A stretch of DNA of 53,313 nucleotides, from the NCBI GenBank assembly GCA_028819575.1, contig JAPPLB010000101.1, positions 1 to 53,313 on the forward strand. The letters run 5' to 3'. Made by a program: the position numbers and the translations under genes. Each line of letters opens with the position of its first letter. The stretch's first letter is position 1. The stretch is from Bryobacterales bacterium. Lineage in GTDB: Bacteria; Acidobacteriota; Terriglobia; Bryobacterales; UBA6623. Under the pieces are notes generated by a model. It was not told the origin of the DNA. It saw only the letters and a list, made by a program, of their open reading frames with translations, and searched no databases. Of the stretch, positions 15,886 to 53,106 are shown piece after piece.

Positions 15886-17079
15886 ATGAGACTCCGGCGC
15901 ATTCTGTTCTGGCTGCTGTTTACCGGCGGAGTAGTGGCCGCGATTGTTTGGGGCTTCATGCCCCGGCCGGTCTCCGTTGAAACAGCGGTCGTCAAGCGCG
16001 GTCCGCTGCAGGTATCCGTGGAAGAGGAAGGGAAGACCCGTGTGATCGATCGCTTTGTGGTTTCAGCGCCTGTGGACGGTTTCGCGCGGCGGCTCAACGC
16101 CGATGTGGGAGACATCGTCCGGCGAGGCGAAACATTGCTTCTTCTCGACCCGTTGCGATCCACGGTGCTCGACCCCCGCAGCCGCGCTGAGGCGCAAGCT
16201 CGGGTCGCGGCGGTGGAGGCCGCCCTCAAGCGCGCGCAGAAAGAAGTGGAAGCCGCCGGCGCCGAGGCCCGCCGCTGGGAGACGCAACTCAAACGAACGC
16301 GGGAACTGCATGCCGCGGGCACGATCGCCGACGATGTCCTCGACGAAATTTCGGCATCGGCCGAACGCAGCCAGGCGCAAGAGCGATCCGCCGAATACGC
16401 CGTCGATGTGGCTCGCCATGAGCTCGAGGCGGCAAAAACCGCTCTGCGTCATTCCGCCGCGCAGCAGTCTCAGAAGCCTGCCGAGACCGTAGCGGTTCGC
16501 GCCCCTGTCGGCGGCCGGATCTTGAAGATCGTGCACGAGAGCGAGGGCGTCGTCGACGCCGGCGAGCCGCTCCTTGAAATCGCGAATCCGCGTGGACTCG
16601 AGGTCGAGGTTGAACTTCTGTCGGCTGATGCCGTGAAGGTCGGCCCCGGAACCCGCGTCCTCTTCGAGCGCTGGGGCGGTGAGCATCCTTTGCAAGGTCT
16701 CGTCCGCATCGTCGAACCGGTCGGCTTCACGAAGATCTCGGCGCTGGGTGTAGAGGAGCAGAGAGTGCTGGTCATCGTCGATATCACATCGCCGCCTGAG
16801 CAATGGGCGCGTCTGGGTGACGGCTATCGAGTCGAGGCTCGATTCATCCTGTGGGAGGGAGAAAACGTCCTCCAGATTCCAAGCAGCACGCTTTTTCGCC
16901 ATGGTGAGGGCTGGGCGGTATTCGCTGTTGAAGAAGGTATGGCGGAGCGGCAGCCCGTCGAGATGGGACATCGTAATGGTTTGATCACTGAAGTCTTGTC
17001 CGGCCTGGAAGAAGGCGACACGCTGATCACCCATCCCGATGACGCCATCGACGACGGCGTAGAGGTCCAACCCCGATAG
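15886..17079 (+). CDS. HlyD/MacA-type periplasmic adaptor
   Basis: Membrane fusion protein expected to link the adjacent ABC permease to an outer-membrane channel. Seen: an N-terminal membrane anchor ('RILFWLLFTGGVVAAIVWGF'), a lipoyl half 'VSAPVDGFARRLNADVGDIVRRGETLLLLD', a long alpha-helical hairpin with coiled coil (residues 105-190, 'AEAQARVAAVEAALKRAQKEVE'), the second lipoyl half 'VRAPVGGRILKI', and beta-barrel and membrane-proximal domains ('QIPSSTLFRHGEGWAVF'). The TAG stop at 17077-17079 is the first three bases of an inverted R1 repeat copy. No TolC-like gene is nearby. Confidence 0.93.
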   Translation: MRLRRILFWLLFTGGVVAAIVWGFMPRPVSVETAVVKRGPLQVSVEEEGKTRVIDRFVVSAPVDGFARRLNADVGDIVRRGETLLLLDPLRSTVLDPRSRAEAQARVAAVEAALKRAQKEVEAAGAEARRWETQLKRTRELHAAGTIADDVLDEISASAERSQAQERSAEYAVDVARHELEAAKTALRHSAAQQSQKPAETVAVRAPVGGRILKIVHESEGVVDAGEPLLEIANPRGLEVEVELLSADAVKVGPGTRVLFERWGGEHPLQGLVRIVEPVGFTKISALGVEEQRVLVIVDITSPPEQWARLGDGYRVEARFILWEGENVLQIPSSTLFRHGEGWAVFAVEEGMAERQPVEMGHRNGLITEVLSGLEEGDTLITHPDDAIDDGVEVQPR

Positions 17080-17270
17080 CCTGTATGTCTCACCACGTGG
17101 CGAGGCGAAGTGCGTGAGAGGGCCGTCAGGACGAGGCGCAAGCCGGGCGGAGGAAAAAGGCGCAAGCAACATGGCCTTTAAGGTTTTTTCACGAATCACG
17201 AGACACGAATCACGAATCACGGCCTTTTAATCGTGTGCTTCGACCGTCGGGTGGTGAGAAAGGCAGGCTG
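17077..17270 (-). repeat. R1 repeat, long variant, inverted orientation
   Basis: An R1 copy in reverse orientation relative to the full copies at 22245 and 37080. Outer ends are TAGCCTGTATGTCTCACCAC at left and GTGGTGAGAAAGGCAGGCTG at right, still recognisably inverted but with several mismatches. The interior carries several TTCGTG units on the minus strand in place of the middle found in the 183-bp form, plus a 'CCTTTTTCCTCCGCCCGGCTTG' block (split: CCTTTTTCCTCC, GCCCGGCTTG). Its first three bases form the stop codon of the HlyD adaptor gene. Confidence 0.85.
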
Positions 17271-17316: not shown

Positions 17317-17793
17317 TCAGGCCTCCACCCAAAACGGGCTTGACCAAGCCTGGTGGCCATTAGCCTGCGTGGCGCGTACGTAGTAGTAGTCAGCTCTCCC
17401 CGCGCGGCCGTAGTCGGTGTGGCGGAAGCGGGCGTTGTAGAGTTCAGGCGTGACAAGCCGGTGCATCAGCACGGACTCGGCCGTGAACGGACCCGTGAAC
17501 TCGACTTCGCTGTTCTCGGCAAGTTCGCCGAGGGTGCGCTGGAACTGAAGTGGCGCAGGCTTGGTGACAGCAAGGCGGATCACGGCGTCACGGCCACCGA
17601 TGATCTCAAGCAGCACGGATTTGGTGGGCTTCTCCTCGTAAGCCTGCTTGCGTGACGTAAAGAGCCGCACGCGGCAGGATGACTCCTTGCGTTCCACGAT
17701 GCGGTCCCGGCGGTCTTCATCGAAGGGTCCGGACTGAAAACACGGCGTCAAGGATGCGATCTTTCCGTTGGTGACCGTGATCGTCGCGTCTCA
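17317..17793 (-). pseudogene. 3' remainder of PHP/DUF3604-like gene after in-frame TGA
   Basis: This stretch continues the frame of the gene at 17791-18807 with no other stop for about 158 codons after the TGA. The translation across the junction is 'NMTRIAD-stop-DATITVTNGKIASLTPCFQ', then 'SGPFDEDRRDRIVERKESSCRVRLF', 'TKSVLLEIIGG' and 'DYGRAGRADYYYVRATQANG', which reads as the normal C-terminal beta domain of this family. A TGG (Trp) at the stop position would restore one protein of about 496 residues. Possible causes are a nonsense mutation, a sequencing error or recoding. A TTG at 17751 could restart translation, but no ribosome site supports it. Confidence 0.8.
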
Positions 17794-18807
17794 ATCGGCA
17801 ATGCGCGTCATGTTGAGGTCGCCCCAGGGTCCCCAGCCGAATTCGATCCTCGAGAGAACCCGGCCGGGCCAAGGTCCATCGTCGCGAACGTAGTCTTCAG
17901 GGAAGTAGCGGTAGACGACGCGATTGTGCTTGAGAATCTCGATTTTCTCGATTTCGTCCTTTCCTTGGACAGAGATTTCGAACTCGCGCTCCCGCGTGAA
18001 AGGGATCTCCGACCCCATCTGTTGATCGTTGAGCGTGGCGAACAGGCGGATGCGGTCGCCGCTGACGGCGATGGTGCGGCGGTTCCAGAGCGCGTCCAGG
18101 ATCGCTGCTCGCGAAAGCTCCTTGGCCCAGATGCCCGCCAGTCCTTCTCCGTAAGCTCCGGGGTAACCGAGGTGGTCGTCCGAACTGGCGATGACGCCGG
18201 GACGGAATCCTCGCTGCAAAGCAGCCTGCAACGTGTTGCGGGTCCAGCGTCCGCCCATGCTGTGGCGGATGTATCGAAACCCTGCGCGGTCGTGCTCCGA
18301 CAGCCCGTGTTCGGACATGATCTCCATCACCGGACTCACCGAGGGTTCCAGATAGTCCCAATTCGCGCCGCGCCAACCCTGCTTGTACGCCAAGTGATGG
18401 GGGACGATCATCGCCTCAGTGCCCTTGACATAGTTCTGCAAGTCACGGACATGGTTGTGATACTTCAACGGAGAGTGATCTCCCGGGTAGTAGAGGCAAT
18501 AGTCACCGAAAAAGCTCGAATGCCATTCATACGCGAGGATCGAGACAAACTTGCCCTTGCGATTCGATTCTGCGGCGAGCCGCTGTACTTTCGGCCAGTT
18601 GTCCTGGAGAACCTTGAAGCCGTTGACCCATTTCATGTGCGCGTCATTCGGCATCTCAGGCATGTCATGCCATTGGGAGTGCGGCGTGAAAGCCAGTACG
18701 TCCAGATGCTCTTGCGCGATGTCGTACGTCCGCTCAATCGACCCGCGCGCATATCCGACCGCGTTGTGATTATGAAGATCGCCCCAGAAGAGTTGGTAGT
18801 CGTTCAT
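17791..18807 (-). CDS. PHP/DUF3604-like metal-dependent phosphoesterase family, N-terminal part
   Basis: Amidohydrolase/PHP-like protein of the DUF3604 type. Seen: metal-binding opening 'FWGDLHNHNAVGYARGS', 'VLAFTPHSQWHD', 'VSILAYEWHSSFFGDYCLYYPGD', 'MIVPHHLAYKQGWRGANWD', 'VMEIMSEHG', 'GVIASSDDHLGYPGAYGEGLAGIWA' and 'TIAVSGDRIRL'. These His/Asp clusters are the expected metal ligands. The reading frame ends at a TGA after 338 residues, but the same frame continues with clearly homologous protein (17317-17790), so this is an N-terminal fragment of a roughly 496-residue gene. The catalytic domain is complete; the C-terminal beta domain is cut off. Substrate unknown. Confidence 0.8.
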   Translation of the reverse strand: MNDYQLFWGDLHNHNAVGYARGSIERTYDIAQEHLDVLAFTPHSQWHDMPEMPNDAHMKWVNGFKVLQDNWPKVQRLAAESNRKGKFVSILAYEWHSSFFGDYCLYYPGDHSPLKYHNHVRDLQNYVKGTEAMIVPHHLAYKQGWRGANWDYLEPSVSPVMEIMSEHGLSEHDRAGFRYIRHSMGGRWTRNTLQAALQRGFRPGVIASSDDHLGYPGAYGEGLAGIWAKELSRAAILDALWNRRTIAVSGDRIRLFATLNDQQMGSEIPFTREREFEISVQGKDEIEKIEILKHNRVVYRYFPEDYVRDDGPWPGRVLSRIEFGWGPWGDLNMTRIAD

Positions 18808-22244: not shown

Positions 22245-22427
22245 TAGCCTGCATTTCTCACCACCCGACGGTCGAAGCACGCGATACGACCGCCAGGACT
22301 TCGTTGCGCTTGCTTGCCGTGCTCGACGTACTGTTCAAGTACGCCTGCGCGCGCCAAGCGGCTCGCGCCTCGTCCTGACGGCCCTCTCACGCACTTCGCC
22401 TCGCCACGTGGTGAGAAATGCAGGCTA
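22245..22427 (+). repeat. R1 repeat, full 183-bp copy with perfect terminal inverted repeats
   Basis: The best copy of R1. It begins TAGCCTGCATTTCTCACCAC and ends with the exact reverse complement, so the terminal inverted repeats are 20 of 20 including the outer TA. The interior contains CCGACGGTCGAAGCACGCGA, GACCGCCAGGACTTCG, GTACTGTTCAAGTACGCC and CGCCTCGTCCTGACGG. The last three bases (CTA) are the stop codon TAG of the permease gene on the minus strand. There is no coding capacity; it resembles a MITE or a REPIN-type palindromic element. Confidence 0.92.
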
Positions 22428-24356: not shown

Positions 24357-27300
24357 CTAGAAGTGGAGCTTCAGCCCGAACTGGATAATCCGCATATTCG
24401 AACGCGTGCTGCGAATCTCGCCGTTGCGAGCCCCGTCAGGAACGAGACTCTGGCCCGAGAACGAAATATTGCCCGGGGCGCCGAACCACGGCGAATTGGT
24501 CGCGTTGAAGAACTCCGAGCGGAACTGGATGCGGAAGCGCTCGCCGATCGGGATGTTCTTGAAGAACCCGAAATCGAGTTGCCCCTGCGCCGGCGTCGTG
24601 AGCACAGCGTAACCCAAGTCGCCATAGTGACAGTGGGTCGACACGATCTCCGGAATGTTGCACGTCACCCGTTGGAAAGCCTGCGTGTTGTACCACAGTT
24701 TCCTGGTGGGGTTCGAAATCTTCCAGTCCCCAGTCAGGTCCGGCCGGATCGAAGTGCTGTCCGCAAGGTTCAGATCCCTGAAGTTGTTCGTGATGTTCAT
24801 CGGGAATCCCGAACGGAACGACAGGATACCGTTGTTCTGCCAACCGCCCAGGATGTACTTCAACGGTCCGTTGAGGTTCCGTCCCGGCATATCCCAGACC
24901 CAGTGCGAGACCAACATGTGCTGCTGGTCGAAACGCAGGCGACCCCTCGTCGAAGAGCGGTCGAGGCGGGAGTTCTGATGGTAGGCGTGCTGGTTGCCTC
25001 CGGCTTCGCCGTTACCCAGCGTCTTGCTCCAGGTGTAGGACATGCCGAAGGTCACACCCGACGAATACCGCTTTTCGAGTTTGGCCTGGAAGCCGTGGTG
25101 ATTGGTGTCGCCGTAGCTGTCGAGATAGCGGATATTGGCGACTCCCTGCACCCCCAGCGACGGGGTCGACTCGTCGAAGAACCGCGGGAACGGCCGGTTC
25201 GCCTGGACATTGGTATCCGGGGAGGGAAGCGGGTTGTTCCAGTTCCAGAAACTGTTCGCGACGTGGGTGCTCTTGCTGCCCACATAGCCAACCGTCAGGG
25301 CTGTGTTCCAACCCAGGTCCCGTTGTACGTCCATGCTCCACCGCCAGGTGTCGCCGTCCTTGTAATCGGGTTTGACATGATAGGTGCGGACCGGCTTCAC
25401 TGTTGCCGTACCGCCGCCCTGCTCAGCGAAGGGATCGTTGAGCGAGATGAGGGGCGCTCCCGGCCGGAGCATCCTCGTATCGGATCGATACGATTCACCG
25501 TCAAGCCCCGTGACCATCAGGGACCGGTTGAAGTCGGTCACCTGCTGGAACTCGAGGGAGCCCGACTTGGGCGGCATCAGGTTGAGGATCGTGAAGTTGT
25601 TCTGGTGCATCAGGTTGGCATACCAACCGGCGCCGGCGCGAAGCACCCAGCCGTTCGCCGGCCGGAAGGCGACGCCAAACCGCGGCATGAAGAACTTGAT
25701 GTCCTGCTTCCAGAGCTTCACTCCACCGCGCTCATCGACGTAGGTGGGGCCAGCCGTCACGACCCTTTCCCCCGTTGCCGGATCGGTGTAGCCCTGGCCG
25801 TTGAATCCATCCCTGCCTGCGGGGTGGTCTTCGCCCGGGAAGTTGATGGTTCGCCACAGACCCGCGATATCGCGCGGATTGCCGAGATACTCGAAGCGCA
25901 GGCCCATGTTCAAGGTGAGCCTGGAATTCACTTTCCAGTCGTCGTGGACATAGTAACCCTGGCGAATCGCCCGCACGAACGTGAACGGCACGCCCTCCGC
26001 GGAAAGCGTTGAGGTCGGCAGTCCCAGCAGGAACGAAGAGAAGCCGTGTCCGCTCTCGCGGGCGCCCATCGTAATCCGGCCGGTCGCGAAGTTGGCCGCG
26101 GCGCGCTCGATCGAAACGCGGTACATCTCGCCGCCGAACTTGAGGTTATGGCTGCCCTTGATGATCGAGACATGGTCACCGGCCTGCAGACTGTCCATCT
26201 TGTTCGTGATGCTGTTGTCACGCATACCGGGAATCCCGGCGCCATACGTCTGAACGACGCCCTGCTCGAAGGGCGTCAGCGTGCGGTTGCCGTCGCCGAA
26301 GACGCGGTACCTGCCGATGCCGAAATCATCCATGTTGAAGCCTTCATCGTTGGTACGCGGGTTCACCAGGTCGTTGTTCGAGAAGCTGAAGCCGAAGCGC
26401 AGCTCGTTGATCATGTTCTGGTTGAAGGTGTGGATCCACTGCGTCGCCAGGTTCTGGGCATCGATGACCCAGTCGTTGGAGAAGTTGGGATTGATGGTCG
26501 GGCCCGGACGGAAGGAGTCGTCCCACGCCAGCCGCCCAAAAACACGATCGGCGTCGCTGAAGTGGTGATCGATCCGGCCGTAGTACTGCGTCGAGTCCAC
26601 CAGGTTCACGATCGCCTTGCGCACGGTCGGCGCCAGCGGATCGCCCAGCGCATCACGGAAGTCCGCTGTCGGAACGAGCTGCGGCAGGAAGTTGTTGACC
26701 ACGCCCGGGTGCAGCCGGTCCTGCGGGATGACGTTGTTCGGGAAGGGATCGCCCGTAAAGGCATCGTAGATGACGAGGGGACGACGGAAGAGCCTGCCCG
26801 TTTCCGGGTTCATCGTTCCGGTCAGCAGCTCGCTGAAGTCTCCGCCGCGCATCTCATCCAGCGGGAACCAGGCCTCCGAGACACCCGTTCTGCGGTCCTG
26901 ACGGCTTTCGATGTCGGCCATGAAGAACGTCTTGTTCTTCTTGATCGGGCCGCTGACAACGAAGCCGAACTGGTTGCGGATGTTCTTGTTCTTCTCGCGC
27001 TGCTGGTCGGCCGGCCGCTCGAAGTTCAAGAAGTACGGGTCGGCGTCGAGCGCTTCGTTGCGCAGGAACTCGAACAGCGTGCCGTGCAGCTCGTTCGTCC
27101 CGCTCTTCATCGTGATGTTCGTCACGGCGCCGCCCCCGAAGCCCACTTCGGCGTTGTAGGCGCTGGTCGTGATCTTGAACTCCTCGATGGCCTCGATCGA
27201 CGGAACGAAGGGCGTGATGTGAATGCGCGGGTCCTTGGCGTCCACGCCGTCGAGACTGACGACCTGGTGGATCTCGCGGACGCCGTTGGCGCTCACCGAG

Positions 27301-27866
27301 TAGCTCGCGCCGGGGACCGGGAAGCCGCCTTCACCGGTGGCCATACCCGAGCGTTGTCCATACTGCACGCCCGGCACCAACACCGCCAATTGCACGATGT
27401 TGCGGCCGTTCAGCGGCAGCTCGACGATGCGCCGGTTCTCGACCACAGCGCCGACGGTCGCATTCTCCGTCTGCAGCGTGACGGCGGCGGCCGACACTTC
27501 GACGGTCTCGGTAACGTCACCGATCTCGAGCGTAAAGTCGACGCGCACCTGGTCGCCGGTCCCTACGCGCTGGTTGGACGTGGTGTTGGTCTTGAAGCCT
27601 TCCAACTGACACGTGACGTCATAGTTGCCGACGGGAACCAACGCAAACGTGTAGTTCCCGGTCTCGTTGGATTGCACCGACTGCGACACACCGGTATCGA
27701 GGTTCATGTAGCTTACCGTCGCACCAGGGATCACGGCGCCGGTCGCATCGCTTACCAGACCCTGAATGGTCTGGGTAATCGACTGCGCCTTGAGCGCAGG
27801 AGTGTGGATAAACAGGGAGACTGCCAGAACAACGAGCAGCCACCCCCATCGTCTGTTTCTTGTCAT
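24357..27866 (-). CDS. TonB-dependent receptor, Oar-like, copy 1
   Basis: Outer-membrane receptor of 1169 residues. Seen: signal peptide ('WGWLLVVLAVSLFIHTPALKAQS'; in parts 'LLVVLAVSLFIHTPALKA'), a carboxypeptidase-regulatory-like beta domain ('TIQGLVSDATGAVIPGATVS', 'GNYTFALVPVGNYDV'), a plug domain with 'VELPLNGRNIVQLAVLVPG' and 'SLDGVDAKDPRIHI', then a long beta-barrel with many aromatic-rich strands and a terminal Phe ('MRIIQFGLKLHF'), the usual outer-membrane assembly signal. Start ATG 27866 is chosen for the signal peptide. The family is multiplied in Acidobacteriota and is thought to bind large ligands such as oligosaccharides; the ligand here is unknown. A homologous gene follows upstream at 28475-31954. 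Confidence 0.93.
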   Translation of the reverse strand: MTRNRRWGWLLVVLAVSLFIHTPALKAQSITQTIQGLVSDATGAVIPGATVSYMNLDTGVSQSVQSNETGNYTFALVPVGNYDVTCQLEGFKTNTTSNQRVGTGDQVRVDFTLEIGDVTETVEVSAAAVTLQTENATVGAVVENRRIVELPLNGRNIVQLAVLVPGVQYGQRSGMATGEGGFPVPGASYSVSANGVREIHQVVSLDGVDAKDPRIHITPFVPSIEAIEEFKITTSAYNAEVGFGGGAVTNITMKSGTNELHGTLFEFLRNEALDADPYFLNFERPADQQREKNKNIRNQFGFVVSGPIKKNKTFFMADIESRQDRRTGVSEAWFPLDEMRGGDFSELLTGTMNPETGRLFRRPLVIYDAFTGDPFPNNVIPQDRLHPGVVNNFLPQLVPTADFRDALGDPLAPTVRKAIVNLVDSTQYYGRIDHHFSDADRVFGRLAWDDSFRPGPTINPNFSNDWVIDAQNLATQWIHTFNQNMINELRFGFSFSNNDLVNPRTNDEGFNMDDFGIGRYRVFGDGNRTLTPFEQGVVQTYGAGIPGMRDNSITNKMDSLQAGDHVSIIKGSHNLKFGGEMYRVSIERAAANFATGRITMGARESGHGFSSFLLGLPTSTLSAEGVPFTFVRAIRQGYYVHDDWKVNSRLTLNMGLRFEYLGNPRDIAGLWRTINFPGEDHPAGRDGFNGQGYTDPATGERVVTAGPTYVDERGGVKLWKQDIKFFMPRFGVAFRPANGWVLRAGAGWYANLMHQNNFTILNLMPPKSGSLEFQQVTDFNRSLMVTGLDGESYRSDTRMLRPGAPLISLNDPFAEQGGGTATVKPVRTYHVKPDYKDGDTWRWSMDVQRDLGWNTALTVGYVGSKSTHVANSFWNWNNPLPSPDTNVQANRPFPRFFDESTPSLGVQGVANIRYLDSYGDTNHHGFQAKLEKRYSSGVTFGMSYTWSKTLGNGEAGGNQHAYHQNSRLDRSSTRGRLRFDQQHMLVSHWVWDMPGRNLNGPLKYILGGWQNNGILSFRSGFPMNITNNFRDLNLADSTSIRPDLTGDWKISNPTRKLWYNTQAFQRVTCNIPEIVSTHCHYGDLGYAVLTTPAQGQLDFGFFKNIPIGERFRIQFRSEFFNATNSPWFGAPGNISFSGQSLVPDGARNGEIRSTRSNMRIIQFGLKLHF

Positions 27867-28135
27867 AGAAACTTCGTTTCTCCGTTTTTTGGGTAAAAGC
27901 TTTGTGCTGTTTCGATCGAACAAGAAGGGCAATACCCACTCCACACGCGGTCAACAAAGCAACCGCGAGCCGAGCGTGAACGGTAGGACGCCTGCGCGAC
28001 ACCGCATTGCCGGCCTCAACTTCGAGTTCCGAACTGTGGCCCCGCTCAAACCTCAAACCACCCCGCCCAGACCCTATCACGACCCATCAAACGATGTCAA
28101 GCGGTTATGCGGGGTTGTCATCGCGATTCAGAACC

Positions 28136-28474: not shown

Positions 28475-31400
28475 CTAGAAGAAGAGCTTCAGCGCGAATT
28501 GCTGAATCCTCATGGGCGTCCGGATGCCCCGGATCTCACCGTTGCGCGTACCGTCCGGCACGAGCACGTCCGCGCTGGAGAACCCGATACCTCCGGGCGC
28601 GCCGAAGTACGGCGTGTTCGCGGCGTTGAACAGCTCCCAGCGGAACTGGAGCCTCACGTTCTCGGTGATCGGGAAGTTCTTGAAGAGCCCGAAGTCCAGG
28701 TTCACCTGCCCCGGCGAATCGAGAATGTTGTAACCGGCGTCTCCGAAGTGGCAGCGGTCGGCCACCAGCTCCGGGACATCGCAGGTCACCCGCAGGAACG
28801 CCTTGGGGTCATACCACAGCTTCCGCGTGGCATTGCTGAGCGCTCCGTCGGCAACCCGGTCAGGACGGATATTCGAGTCGGAAACGTTCAGGTCTCCCCT
28901 GGGGTTCACGATGGTGAACGGGAAGCCAGAACGCATCGAGAGGATGCCGTTCGACTGCCAGCCGCCGATGATGTGCTTCAACGGCCCGGAGAGGTTCTGC
29001 CCCGGCATTTCCCAGACGAAGTGGCTGACGAGGTTGTGCCGCTGGTCGAACCGGAAGCGGCCGCGGTCGCAGCTCAGGCAGTTGCGCGGGTTCTGGAACT
29101 GGGCGCCCTGCTGGCCGCCGTTCTCCCCGTCGCCGTGCGACTTGCTGAAGGTGTACGCCACGCCGAACGCCAACCCATTGGAATAGCGCTTGTCCAGCTT
29201 CATCTGCAGACCGTGATGGAACGTGTTCGCGAAGCTGTCCAGATAGCGGATCACCGCCAGGCTCTGCACGCCCAGCTCCGGCGTCGCCGGATCGTACACG
29301 CGTTGCCAGGGCCGGTTTCTCTGAATGTTGTTATCCGGAGAGGGCAAGGGACTGTTCCAGTTCCGAACGCTGTTCCCCGCGTGGGACCCCTTGCTGCCGA
29401 CATAGCCGACCGTCAAGGACGTCTCGAAGGGAAGTTCCCTCTGGATGTCGAAGCTCCACTTCACCACGTTGCCCGTCTTCTGATCGGAGGGCACCGTCAA
29501 GGTGTTGATGTTGCGCGGCGAGGCGGCGGCTCCCACGTCCTGAAGGAAGGGGTCGTTCAAGGTGATGATCGGATTACCGGGACGGAACATGCGCAAGGTG
29601 CGGTTGACCGGCCCACTTACGCCGGGAACCGTGATGGAGCCGGCAGCGTCGGTGACGGCCTCGAAGTTGTTCGAGCCCGACAGCGGCGGGTTGAGGTTCA
29701 GGATCGTCCAGGTGTTCATATGGTCGATGTTGCTGAAGTAGCCTCCACCGATGCGAACCACCCAACCTTCAGACGGACGGTAGGCGATCCCCAACCGGGG
29801 CTGGTAGAAGATTCCCTGCTGCTTCCACAGGTTGACCTTGCCTTCCGGCACGTTGACCGGCTCCGGGAAGAAGGTCGGAATCTGCTGTCCGGTTTCGGGA
29901 TCCGTGAAGTACGGTCCGCGGTTATACGTCTCACCCGGGAAGGCGACGACCCGCTGCAGGCCGAGGGCATCCTGGGAGTTGCCGACATACTCGAGCCGCA
30001 ACCCCAGGTTCAACGTCAACTTCGACGTGGCTTTCCAGTCGTCGTTGAAGTAGTAGGCCTGGCGTCCGGCCCGCGGCACCGTGCGCGGCCAGCCTTCGGC
30101 CGTTTCCGTCCGGTGAGGCAGGCCCAGCAGGAACGAGGCAAACCCGTCGCCGCTCTGAGCCGCGTTGAAGGTGTAACGGCCCGTCGGCAGGTTGGCCGCG
30201 GCGCGATCCATAGTCACGTAGTAGTACTCACCACCGATCTTCAGGTTGTGACTGCCTCGAATGAGAGACAGGTGGTCGGCGAACTGGTAGGTATCCAACT
30301 GGTTGAGGTTGCCGTTGACCGACCACGGGAAGCGCGCGCCGCTGATATGCGGCGGCCCCGTCTCGAGGGGAGTCAGCTTGCGGTTGTTGTCGCCCGCCAC
30401 CCGGATCAGGCCGATGCCGAGGCTGTCGGGGTCGAAATCCGTATTCGTGAAGTAGTGGAAGGGATTGGTTCCGGCGAGGTTGAACCCGAAACGGAACTCG
30501 TTGATCGCATTCTGGTTGAAGGTGTGGATCCACTGCGTCGCCAGGTTATAGACGTCGTTCGAGTCGATCCGCGACCTCTTGGGGTTGATGTTGTTCAACG
30601 CACGCTCACCCGAAGCAAGCTGGTAACGGCCAAAGATGCGGTCCGAATCGCTGAAATGGTGGTCGACCCGGCCGTAGTACTGGTCGAGGTTGATCGGCCG
30701 AACGACGTTCTCGCGGCAGGTGAAATCGAGCGGGTCCTCCTGCTGGAAGCAGGGCGCCGGAAGAAGCTCGCTCATGGTGGTTTGCGAGCCCGGATGGAGC
30801 CTGGAAGCAGGAATCATGTTGTTCATGAACGGCTCGCCGGTGAAGGCGTCGTAGAGGATGATGGGGTCCCGCATGCGTCCTCCCGCACGGGGCGTCGGCA
30901 TGGCGAAACGCGAGTAGTCGCCGCTCTTGAAGGTGGAGTCCGGGAACCAGGCGGTCTGGATGGAGGAAGTCCGCTCGCGGCGGCCCTCCCAGTTGAACGC
31001 CCAGAACGTCTTGTTCTTGACGATCGGGCCGCTCAAGACCGCTCCGTACTGGTTGCGCCGGAGCTGCTGCTTGGGACGGCGCGCTTCGCCCGCCGCCAAC
31101 TCGAAGTTCAAGAAGTAATGCTCGGCATCGAGCGCTTCGTTGCGGAGAAACTCGAACAGCGTGCCGTGAAGCTCGTTGGTGCCGCTCTTCATCGTGATCG
31201 AAGTCACGGCTCCGCCGCCGAACCCGACTTCGGCCGAATAGGCGTTGGTCTGGATCTTGAACTCCTCGATCGCCTCGATCGAAGGCACGAAGTTGGTGAT
31301 ATGGATGCGGGGATCCTTGGCGTCCACGCCGTCGAGCGAGACCACCTGGTGAATCTCGCGCTGACCGTTGGCGCTGACGGAGTAGCCGGCGCCCGGAATC

Positions 31401-31954
31401 GGGAACCCGCCCTGGCCGTCGTTCATGCCGGTGCGCTGGCCGTACTGTACGCCCGGGACCATCACGGCGAGCTGCACGATGTTGCGGCCGTTGAGCGGCA
31501 GCTCGGTCACGCGCTTGTTCTCGACCACGCCGCCAACCACGGCATTCTCGGTGTTCAGCGTGATGGCGGCGGCGGAAACTTCCACCGTCTCCGTCACGTC
31601 ACCGATTTCGAGTGAAAAGTCGATACGAACCTGGGCGCCCGTTTCCACGCGCTGGTTCGTGACGTTGTCCGTCTTGAATCCTTCCAACTGACAGGAAAGG
31701 TCGTAGTTGCCGACCGGGACTTGCGGGTACGAATAGTTCCCCGTTTCGTTCGTCTGGATGGTGCTGGTTACGCCCGTATCGCGGTTCGTGAGAGTAACCG
31801 CCGCGCCCGGAATCACGGCGCCGGTGGCGTCCGTCACCAGACCCTGAATGGTCTGCGTGATCGCCTGGCCGCTGAGATTCGGGGCAAGCAATCCCGCTAC
31901 GAGAAGAACCGCCGCCAACAACAGCGGCAGTCTCCTTAGTGTTTTTCCTTCCAT
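28475..31954 (-). CDS. TonB-dependent receptor, Oar-like, copy 2
   Basis: Outer-membrane receptor of 1159 residues, homologous along its whole length to the gene at 24357-27866. Seen: signal peptide ('LPLLLAAVLLVAGLLAPNLSG'; in part 'LLLAAVLLVAGLLAP'), the regulatory-like domain 'TIQGLVTDATGAVIPGAAVT', 'LEGFKTDNVTNQRVETGAQV', plug 'TELPLNGRNIVQLAVMVPG' and 'SLDGVDAKDPRIHI', and a barrel ending 'MRIQQFALKLFF' with the terminal Phe. The frame is open back to 32077, but ATG 31954 gives the signal peptide. Plug domains are nearly identical between the copies while barrels differ more, pointing to tandem duplication with ligand divergence. Confidence 0.93.
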   Translation of the reverse strand: MEGKTLRRLPLLLAAVLLVAGLLAPNLSGQAITQTIQGLVTDATGAVIPGAAVTLTNRDTGVTSTIQTNETGNYSYPQVPVGNYDLSCQLEGFKTDNVTNQRVETGAQVRIDFSLEIGDVTETVEVSAAAITLNTENAVVGGVVENKRVTELPLNGRNIVQLAVMVPGVQYGQRTGMNDGQGGFPIPGAGYSVSANGQREIHQVVSLDGVDAKDPRIHITNFVPSIEAIEEFKIQTNAYSAEVGFGGGAVTSITMKSGTNELHGTLFEFLRNEALDAEHYFLNFELAAGEARRPKQQLRRNQYGAVLSGPIVKNKTFWAFNWEGRRERTSSIQTAWFPDSTFKSGDYSRFAMPTPRAGGRMRDPIILYDAFTGEPFMNNMIPASRLHPGSQTTMSELLPAPCFQQEDPLDFTCRENVVRPINLDQYYGRVDHHFSDSDRIFGRYQLASGERALNNINPKRSRIDSNDVYNLATQWIHTFNQNAINEFRFGFNLAGTNPFHYFTNTDFDPDSLGIGLIRVAGDNNRKLTPLETGPPHISGARFPWSVNGNLNQLDTYQFADHLSLIRGSHNLKIGGEYYYVTMDRAAANLPTGRYTFNAAQSGDGFASFLLGLPHRTETAEGWPRTVPRAGRQAYYFNDDWKATSKLTLNLGLRLEYVGNSQDALGLQRVVAFPGETYNRGPYFTDPETGQQIPTFFPEPVNVPEGKVNLWKQQGIFYQPRLGIAYRPSEGWVVRIGGGYFSNIDHMNTWTILNLNPPLSGSNNFEAVTDAAGSITVPGVSGPVNRTLRMFRPGNPIITLNDPFLQDVGAAASPRNINTLTVPSDQKTGNVVKWSFDIQRELPFETSLTVGYVGSKGSHAGNSVRNWNSPLPSPDNNIQRNRPWQRVYDPATPELGVQSLAVIRYLDSFANTFHHGLQMKLDKRYSNGLAFGVAYTFSKSHGDGENGGQQGAQFQNPRNCLSCDRGRFRFDQRHNLVSHFVWEMPGQNLSGPLKHIIGGWQSNGILSMRSGFPFTIVNPRGDLNVSDSNIRPDRVADGALSNATRKLWYDPKAFLRVTCDVPELVADRCHFGDAGYNILDSPGQVNLDFGLFKNFPITENVRLQFRWELFNAANTPYFGAPGGIGFSSADVLVPDGTRNGEIRGIRTPMRIQQFALKLFF

Positions 31955-32549
31955 AAGGCTTTCTTGTTCCTTCACTGTGACGAAGGGAATGCCAACCACG
32001 ATCATGACCACACGCTCGCGGCGCCCCTTCAAAAAGTCTTCGGTTTGAATGGTTTGAACAGAAAGGAGATCACCCACAGACTGCTATGTGCAGATGGCTC
32101 CGGTAATTGGCGTATCACTCTCCGCTGCCCCCCCAAGGAGCAACGGCAGAACTGGATAAACCCCCACGGCGGAACACTTTCTCCACCGATATATTCACTG
32201 TAGCCCTACGGTTCCCTGGCTGTCAACTCTTCGCAGAGGAGTACATGTTCGTCGGATCACATTTGCACGGTTGCGGATTCGGAGGTCTGCACGGCCTTGC
32301 GATCATGTAATTCGATTCAGTGCTCGCAGGTGCAGGTCGTGGCCGTCTTCTCCTGCTCTCTGCGGCTTCGCAGACCGGGTGAAGAACTGCATGCGGGTCC
32401 GTCGCCGGAGCTGTCAGGACAACCGTTCGAGGCATGATTCGCATACCGGCAGTTTTTGGTTTTTGTTTTCCTCCGTCCACGCACGGATCATTCCAGCAAG
32501 AAACATGTGGACCGGCGTCAATGCCACTTGATCAGGAGGATGTTTCACA
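31955..32549. other. Intergenic region upstream of TonB receptor 2
   Basis: 595 bases. The right part (about 32445-32555) is repeat R2. The rest should hold the receptor promoter on the minus strand; AAGGAA about 15 bases before the ATG at 31954 is a weak ribosome site. No gene is supported, although short frames exist on both strands. Confidence 0.5.
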
Positions 32550-36966: not shown

Positions 36967-37277
36967 AGCTCTTTCACTCTCCTTGAGTAGCCGGAAATCC
37001 AGCCTCGGGACGTAACGGCCGGCTGCAGAGAGGCCGTGACCGCGAAAGACGATAGTACCCTAACGGGGACACGGCCTGTTAGCCTGCATGTCTCACCACC
37101 CGACGGTCGAAGCACGCGGTATGACCGCCAGGACTTCGTTGCGCTTGCTTGCCGTGCTCAACGTACTGTTCAAGTACGCCTGCGCGCGCCAAGCGGCTCG
37201 CGCCTCGTCCTGACGGCCCTCTCACGCACTTCGCCTCGCCGCGTGGTGAGACATGCAGGCTAGCCGGCCGCTACACC
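36967..37277. other. Intergenic region between oxidoreductase and apaH
   Basis: 311 bases. 36967-37079 is the upstream region of the oxidoreductase gene; 37080-37262 is a full R1 repeat; 15 bases remain before the apaH start. An in-frame extension of apaH into R1 exists but is repeat sequence and should not be taken as coding. Confidence 0.7.
37080..37262 (+). repeat. R1 repeat, second full 183-bp copy with compensatory change
   Basis: Same length and order as the copy at 22245-22427. Its ends are TAGCCTGCATGTCTCACCAC and the exact reverse complement. Relative to the first copy, T at position 10 of the left arm is G and the facing A of the right arm is C, so the 20-bp pairing is kept. It lies immediately upstream of apaH. 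Confidence 0.93.
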
Positions 37278-39933: not shown

Positions 39934-40118
39934 TCGGCCTGTATTTGTCGCAACACGACGGTCGAAGCACACGATGGAAAAGCCGTGATTCGTGTTTCGT
40001 GACTCGTGATTCGTGAAAAAACCTTAAAAGCCATTTTGTTTGCGCCAAGCGGCTCACGCCTCGTCCTGACGGCCCTCTCACGCACTTCGTCTCGCCGCGT
40101 GGTGAGAAATGCAGGCTA
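39934..40118 (+). repeat. R1 repeat, degenerate copy
   Basis: Left end TCGGCCTGTATTTGTCGCAA (decayed) and right end GTGGTGAGAAATGCAGGCTA (intact). The interior has CGACGGTCGAAGCACACGAT, a run of TTCGTG-type units (GTGATTCGTG, TTTCGTGACTCGTGATTCGTG) and the common CGCCTCGTCCTGACGGCCCT right part. It lies just upstream of the methyltransferase gene. Confidence 0.85.
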
Positions 40119-40131
40119 GACTGATCGGACG

Positions 40132-52738: not shown

Positions 52739-52902
52739 CAGCCTGCATTTCACGCAACCTTACGGCCGAAGCGCAAGAGAACAAAGGCCGTGATTCGTGT
52801 GGAAAACCGGAAAGGCCGTGTTGCCGGGGCCAAGCGGTCGCGGCTCGTCCTGACAGCCTTCTCACACGCTTCGCGTGGCAACGCGGTGAGAAATGCAGGT
52901 CA
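52739..52902 (+). repeat. R1 repeat, degenerate copy
   Basis: Left end CAGCCTGCATTTCACGCAAC, then GGCCGAAGCGCAAGAG, GGCCGTGATTCGTGTGG, CGGCTCGTCCTGACAGCC, and the right end GCGGTGAGAAATGCAGGTCA. The last three bases (TCA) are the stop of the small minus-strand gene. It is more diverged than the 183-bp copies. Confidence 0.8.
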
Positions 52903-53106
52903 GCGCCGCCGCTGCTTTTGCTGACCGACGCGAATCTTGCTCTGTGCGGCTCTCGTCTCTTGCAACGCCTTCCAATCGAAGCGGTTGGCGGCGTCTTTCA
53001 GATAGGCCTTGACATCGGCGTTCTTGGGGAGCACGGCGACGAGGGTGGCGTAGTCGGTCCCGTTCGGGTTCTTGATCCGGTATCGTTTTGCGTTCGGGAT
53101 CGCCAT
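52900..53106 (-). CDS. Small hypothetical basic protein
   Basis: A 68-residue protein with no recognised family: 'MAIPNAKRYRIKNPNGTDYA', 'TLVAVLPKNADVKAYLKDA', and a very basic C-terminus 'IRVGQQKQRRR'. The TGA stop coincides with the last three bases of an R1 repeat. ATG 53106 is chosen; an in-frame GTG at 53124 would add six residues. Coding status is plausible but not proven. Confidence 0.5.
   Translation of the reverse strand: MAIPNAKRYRIKNPNGTDYATLVAVLPKNADVKAYLKDAANRFDWKALQETRAAQSKIRVGQQKQRRR

Follow-up and report, generated by a model that had tools for sequence, protein, structure and literature searches.

A metallohydrolase gene carrying one in-frame TGA

We analysed a 53,313-nucleotide stretch of DNA (the window), which is contig C30 of a Bryobacterales genome (G000), a draft of 5.37 Mb in 200 contigs that is 98.7% complete. 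Between positions 17317 and 18807, on the minus strand, lies a frame of 496 codons plus a stop, which homology identifies as that of a PHP/DUF3604-related metallohydrolase with a single interruption. The gene starts with an ATG at 18807 and runs for 338 codons to a TGA at 17793–17791 (codon 339), beyond which 157 open codons lead to a terminal TGA at 17319–17317. The initial annotation had described the locus in the same terms, and its coordinates were correct; the roughly 158 codons that it gave after the TGA are 157 plus the stop.

When the bases of the downstream 157 codons were shuffled, the frame stayed open in 32 of 2000 trials, so its openness is weak evidence alone. The homology of the downstream protein, which the initial annotation had called family-like, extends throughout, with 97% and 90% identity over residues 1–496 and 1–495 to the proteins of two congeners (the sister genome G002 and G001, respectively). 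This homology is strong evidence that the frame is one continuous gene. A separate downstream gene was rejected: the mechanical open reading frame (ORF) after the stop (17317–17751, minus strand, 144 amino acids) starts with TTG, and the gene is unsplit at this point in all 25 codon-aligned relatives. Genes for an FtsX-type permease, an ABC ATPase and an HlyD-type protein lie on one side of the interrupted gene, and genes for an S15-type peptidase, a periplasmic binding protein and a transport permease on the other. These neighbours offer no explanation for the lesion, and an Rfam search over the window found nothing at the gathering score.

The stop falls inside a modelled strand of the C-terminal beta domain

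An AlphaFold2 model built from 26 sequences (pLDDT 87.5, pTM 0.90) has a complete PHP metallohydrolase domain up to about residue 251, followed by a large C-terminal beta domain. On this model, the upstream part of the gene (residues 1–338; 17794–18807, minus strand) would encode the complete PHP domain (about residues 5–251) and the first strands of the beta domain. The downstream part (residues 340–496; 17320–17790, minus strand) would encode the remainder of the beta domain and shows purifying selection relative to G002. The N-terminal domain had as its best structural neighbours TM0559 (PDB 2anu; Z 19.9, 211 residues, rmsd 3.4) and BVU_3505 (PDB 3e38; Z 20.0, 224 residues, rmsd 3.1), with EndoQ, histidinol phosphatases and the PHP domains of DNA polymerase III ranking below TM0559. 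Both proteins are PHP-type predicted phosphoesterases, BVU_3505 being a two-domain, PHP-like, metal-dependent one. However, sequence identity to them is only 15–19%, and BVU_3505 has 342 residues against the 496 of the interrupted protein with its large beta domain. A PDB sequence search with the protein gave no match up to an E value of 1. H12, H14, E94, H137, D210 and H212 are invariant in the 26 sequences and are the putative metal ligands.

The label PHP/DUF3604-like in the initial annotation holds for the PHP fold and is slightly loose for DUF3604. The DUF3604 profile (PF12228) scored 38.9 bits against a cut-off of 20.4, with its best stretch at residues 222–259, but this match covers profile positions 379–418 only, about 40 of 591, rather than most of the profile. 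The CehA/McbA metallohydrolase model NF038032 scored 48.7 bits, below its cut-off of 80. Among the best 5 of 39 plasmid records, two full-length haloarchaeal homologues with 31–32% identity are annotated as DUF3604.

Ig-like domains of many proteins aligned over 77–100 residues within model residues 251–496, with Z scores of about 7.4–9 that are middling for so common a fold. As the alignments span both sides of residue 339, the Ig-like core would use strands from both sides of it, and codon 339 itself lies within model strand 337–356. A chain ending at the TGA would keep the PHP domain and the invariant residues and lose the rest of the beta domain. Since the stop cuts this domain inside a strand, the truncated chain probably misfolds, or is unstable or inactive.

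Codon 339 encodes tryptophan in all codon-aligned relatives

We searched the read-through protein against its own genome and 99 relatives (E up to 0.001) and obtained matches in 32 of the 100 genomes, many of them weak and partial. Uninterrupted homologues were present in G002 (97% identity, residues 1–496), G001 (90%, residues 1–495), and G055 and G005 (both full-length, 66–67%). A record of a Bryobacterales (Acidobacteriota) metagenome bin also carries the gene, 97% identical over residues 1–496. The window's own genome has an intact paralogue with 49% identity on another contig (G000:C168:14031–15494).

In the codon alignment, all 25 relatives (43–97% identity) have TGG at codon 339 followed by a continuing frame. 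The TGA was found in none of them and is thus seen in one genome only, and the interrupted gene has no further stops. This comparison agrees with the earlier proposal that a TGG would restore the gene, and contradicts the idea that orthologues normally end here. Omitted from the count were L039, L040 and L041, which are the same genes as L010, L011 and L013 (L039 and L041 compared in full, L040 over its first 1400 bases), the partial L028 and the weak matches L029–L038. L029, when added to the 26-row protein alignment, likewise has tryptophan at the site. The W339 column of that alignment is invariant, the window's TGA having been entered as Trp by construction, and invariant residues reach the region of the C-terminal WSSP motif. 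The gene therefore has the hallmark of a pseudogene in one respect, a stop inside a frame that is kept open by 25 of 25 relatives.

The sole other stop in the codon alignment is a TGA at codon 491 of L014, a relative with 47% identity from another family. It replaces the Trp of the C-terminal WSSPIWVE-type motif, and only the last residues are lost.

Selection on both sides of the TGA points to a young lesion or an error

Relative to G002, dN/dS was 0.17 for residues 1–338 and 0.11 for residues 340–496, the latter giving no sign of relaxed selection after the lesion; these two values indicate that the lesion is either young or an error. We also assigned changes to branches by parsimony, with G001 as the outgroup. 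Upstream of the TGA, 7 synonymous and 2 non-synonymous changes fall on the branch leading to the window's genome, with 7 further synonymous changes unplaced. Downstream, this branch has 5 synonymous and 0 non-synonymous changes, with one of each unplaced, where neutrality would predict about 15.5 non-synonymous ones. A rough Poisson bound places the neutral share of this branch below about a fifth. The branch count is itself rough because synonymous sites are saturated in the comparison with G001 (dS about 1.3), yet even if all 5 downstream non-synonymous differences are assigned to the window's genome, constraint remains clear. Taken as a nonsense mutation, the apparent lack of downstream relaxation is compatible only with a very young lesion, which upholds the earlier view that the lesion is very young if real. 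The locus offers a clean example in which a close sister genome allows a lesion to be dated and set apart from recoding.

Recent nonsense mutation or consensus error

We asked how many such stops the assembly contains by comparing about 232 kb of the window's genome (the window, C108 and C168) with G002. The window and G002:C3 are colinear, in blocks with DNA identities of about 89–95%. The survey took ORFs of at least 150 amino acids of which at least 70% fell in one aligned piece with 85% identity or more, with dN/dS below 0.3, dS above 0.05 and little overlap, filters by which badly decayed genes are missed. At codons of 121 G002 genes (52,880 amino acids), the window's genome has 8 stops. 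Seven fall within the first 72 or last 10 codons, as would result from wrongly extended starts or ragged ends; the eighth is the TGA at codon 339, which is therefore an isolated event, being the sole stop outside the gene ends among the 121 filtered genes. A looser first pass over the window only (36 G002 ORFs of at least 100 amino acids) added a TAG at codon 5 of a 150-residue ORF. In the reverse control, 120 ORFs of the window's genome were checked against G002, where 13 stops were found, each within the first 87 or last 7 codons. Because dN/dS is also low upstream of two of them (codon 70 of 220 and codon 61 of 428), these two may be real early lesions in G002 instead of wrongly placed starts.

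Other comparisons gave a similar picture. Frame differences to G002 consist of 1-base and other gaps, mostly near gene starts; one lies late in a gene of the C108 pair (alignment column 1351), and the C168 pair has a gap of 49 bases at column 249. The sulfatase rows of three genomes contained one TAG, in G001, and the rows listed for the PSD1 domain in 18 genomes of the family contained no stop. A lesion-rich assembly does not fit one interior stop among 121 filtered genes. When a 46.5 kb contig of G001 was compared with the window's DNA, only the interrupted gene and its edges matched (one block, 82%); the gene therefore sits elsewhere in G001, which gives no guide to gene order.

We consider that the TGA is probably the result of one recent nonsense substitution, which hit an invariant Trp codon in a single lineage or strain of the bacterium. 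The gene would be otherwise intact, and purifying selection would have acted on it up to the very recent past. Translation would end after residue 338, so that the PHP catalytic domain is retained and the beta domain is cut within a strand; the product is probably unstable or inactive. The intact paralogue on the other contig may make this loss tolerable, and ordinary misreading of UGA by tRNA-Trp could supply traces of the full-length protein.

The main competitor, to which we assign a smaller though appreciable likelihood, is an error in the consensus or base call, or the choice of a minority variant by the assembler, with the gene intact in the population. A single base separates the gene from an open frame, and one wrong consensus base, in a draft of this kind, would look identical to a nonsense mutation. 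The lack of relaxed selection downstream fits an error equally well, and one such lesion in 121 genes is as good a fit to a rare error as to a rare mutation. Part of PMC7918605 adds that a substantial fraction of the in-frame stops in public genomes are expected to be artefacts. However, the assembly does not look error-rich: across the whole genome, all 42 sulfatase-domain matches and all 18 MacB-domain matches are free of stops, and the frame differences to G002 are mostly found close to gene starts. The same part of PMC7918605 reports that in-frame stops are widespread inside bacterial genes and short-lived, lasting only briefly by the measure of population polymorphism, and that dN/dS is below 1. 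Those stops resemble ours in being single in-frame stops in otherwise constrained genes; they differ in that, as a guard against artefacts, only stops shared by at least two species were kept there, whereas ours is seen in one genome.

The weights that we place on competing readings are matters of judgement, with a nonsense mutation the most likely and a sequencing error less so. Under either, the finding holds at the level of sequence and is of an ordinary kind. Alone it means little, as a further example of a recent nonsense lesion, or of a single wrong base, in a draft genome.

UGA decoding in the window's genome

A UGA codon need not end translation, and we examined three ways in which codon 339 might be read through. 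Reassignment of TGA to Trp throughout the genome would agree with the position of the TGA, at which relatives have a Trp codon; we regard such reassignment as practically refuted by terminal stop usage and the tRNAs seen. Terminal codons were counted for 34 of the window's 39 ORFs (all but the interrupted gene's first half and four ORFs that are short or overlapping) and comprise 15 TGA, 12 TAG and 7 TAA, so TGA works as a stop. No other TGA lies outside the gene ends in the 121 surveyed genes, and no UCA anticodon occurs among the RF00005 matches called by ARAGORN (41 of 44, the other 3 being cut at contig ends and uncalled). Selenocysteine insertion is just as hard to credit: the genome does have a separate tRNA-Sec gene (anticodon TCA), but Trp, rather than Cys, occupies the site in 25 of 25 relatives, and the 60 nucleotides from the TGA fold like shuffled sequence (z −0.23), with no strong hairpin in the fold comparison.

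Tolerated or functional readthrough, in which tRNA-Trp would place Trp at the UGA and yield the usual protein at a reduced level, has more in its favour and is still improbable in our estimation. The residue so inserted would be the native one. Read-through is most frequent at UGA according to part of PMC5289835, which also states that tRNA-Trp can misread this codon in E. coli and B. subtilis. The tRNA-Trp of the window's genome has C9, and A9C, with G24A, is cited as facilitating UGA readthrough in part of PMC13092985, where a 4-bp anticodon stem of tRNA-Trp is shown to give UGA readthrough in E. coli. This tRNA-Trp, however, has a 5-bp anticodon stem, so it is an ordinary tRNA-Trp without the 4-bp readthrough stem, and it has C24 opposite G11 rather than A24. 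The base after the TGA is G, not the C or A that part of PMC5289835 names at position +4 for bacteria. TGA also serves as a regular terminator in the window and is otherwise confined to gene ends in the survey. Programmed readthrough, an option raised by the initial annotation, is disfavoured because the stop is conserved in none of the 25 relatives; it was on shared stops that PMC7918605, in the part cited above, relied.

We traced C9 across relatives, using tRNA position numbers of our own and correcting by eye the rows that start one base later. The 74-nucleotide tRNA-Trp is identical in 16 genomes of the Acidobacteriota family f1, to which the window's genome belongs (including loci L141, L142 and L144). 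That of G004 is 99% identical and has C9, and that of G003 has A9, so C9 occurs in 17 of the 18 genomes of the family. In the neighbouring family f3, all 10 tRNA-Trp genes among the matches listed have A9 (a further match is in G021). By analogy with the cited substitution, C9 makes a little natural UGA readthrough plausible across family f1, and raised natural readthrough in this family is a testable prediction. C9 is no evidence for use of the TGA at codon 339, and no excess of interior TGA codons was seen. Were UGA leaky in these C9 genomes, the change from Trp to TGA would be a mild down-tuning that leaves some full-length enzyme, not a knock-out; we think this improbable too, slightly more so than tolerated readthrough. 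The nonsense substitution remains the reading that we favour.

A second tRNA with a CCA anticodon

Two distinct tRNA genes with a CCA anticodon are among the 41 ARAGORN calls in the window's genome. The extra one (G000:C13:3102–3188; L093:98–186, minus strand) has a long variable arm and a tRNA-Leu-like body with A73, and the core of its anticodon arm is identical to that of the genome's own tRNA-Trp. A phage-type integrase is found about 1.7 kb away, and a cut tRNA at the contig end is close by. Among the 41 genomes searched, only the window's own gave a full-length match. The next matches reach at most 73 of 87 bases, at up to 77% over their longer stretches, and ARAGORN called all five that we checked as ordinary tRNA-Leu.

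LeuRS is not known to read the anticodon. The extra tRNA, if charged with Leu, would put Leu at UGG and, were UGA leaky as considered above, could add Leu at UGG or UGA. A viral contig from IMG/VR, one of nine contigs that matched the search pattern, carries an 88-nucleotide tRNA with a Leu-like body and a CCA anticodon (L172:1719–1806, minus strand), and Leu-bodied CCA tRNAs may therefore travel on phages. A literature search for an allo-tRNA with a CCA anticodon found no paper.

Repeats and a duplication in the window

The window contains five copies of a dispersed, MITE-like intergenic element of about 165–192 bp, all of which align (17078–17269, 22245–22427, 37075–37262, 39937–40119 and 52741–52905). 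One lies directly downstream of the interrupted gene. The terminal inverted repeats of the first two copies are 19–20 bp long and 84% and 100% complementary. G002 also has similar copies, some of them at other sites.

Two adjacent ORFs of about 1,200 amino acids lie on the minus strand at 24357–27944 and 28475–32077. The DNA of each cross-matches the G002 counterpart of the other at 66–77%, a pattern that probably reflects a tandem duplication.
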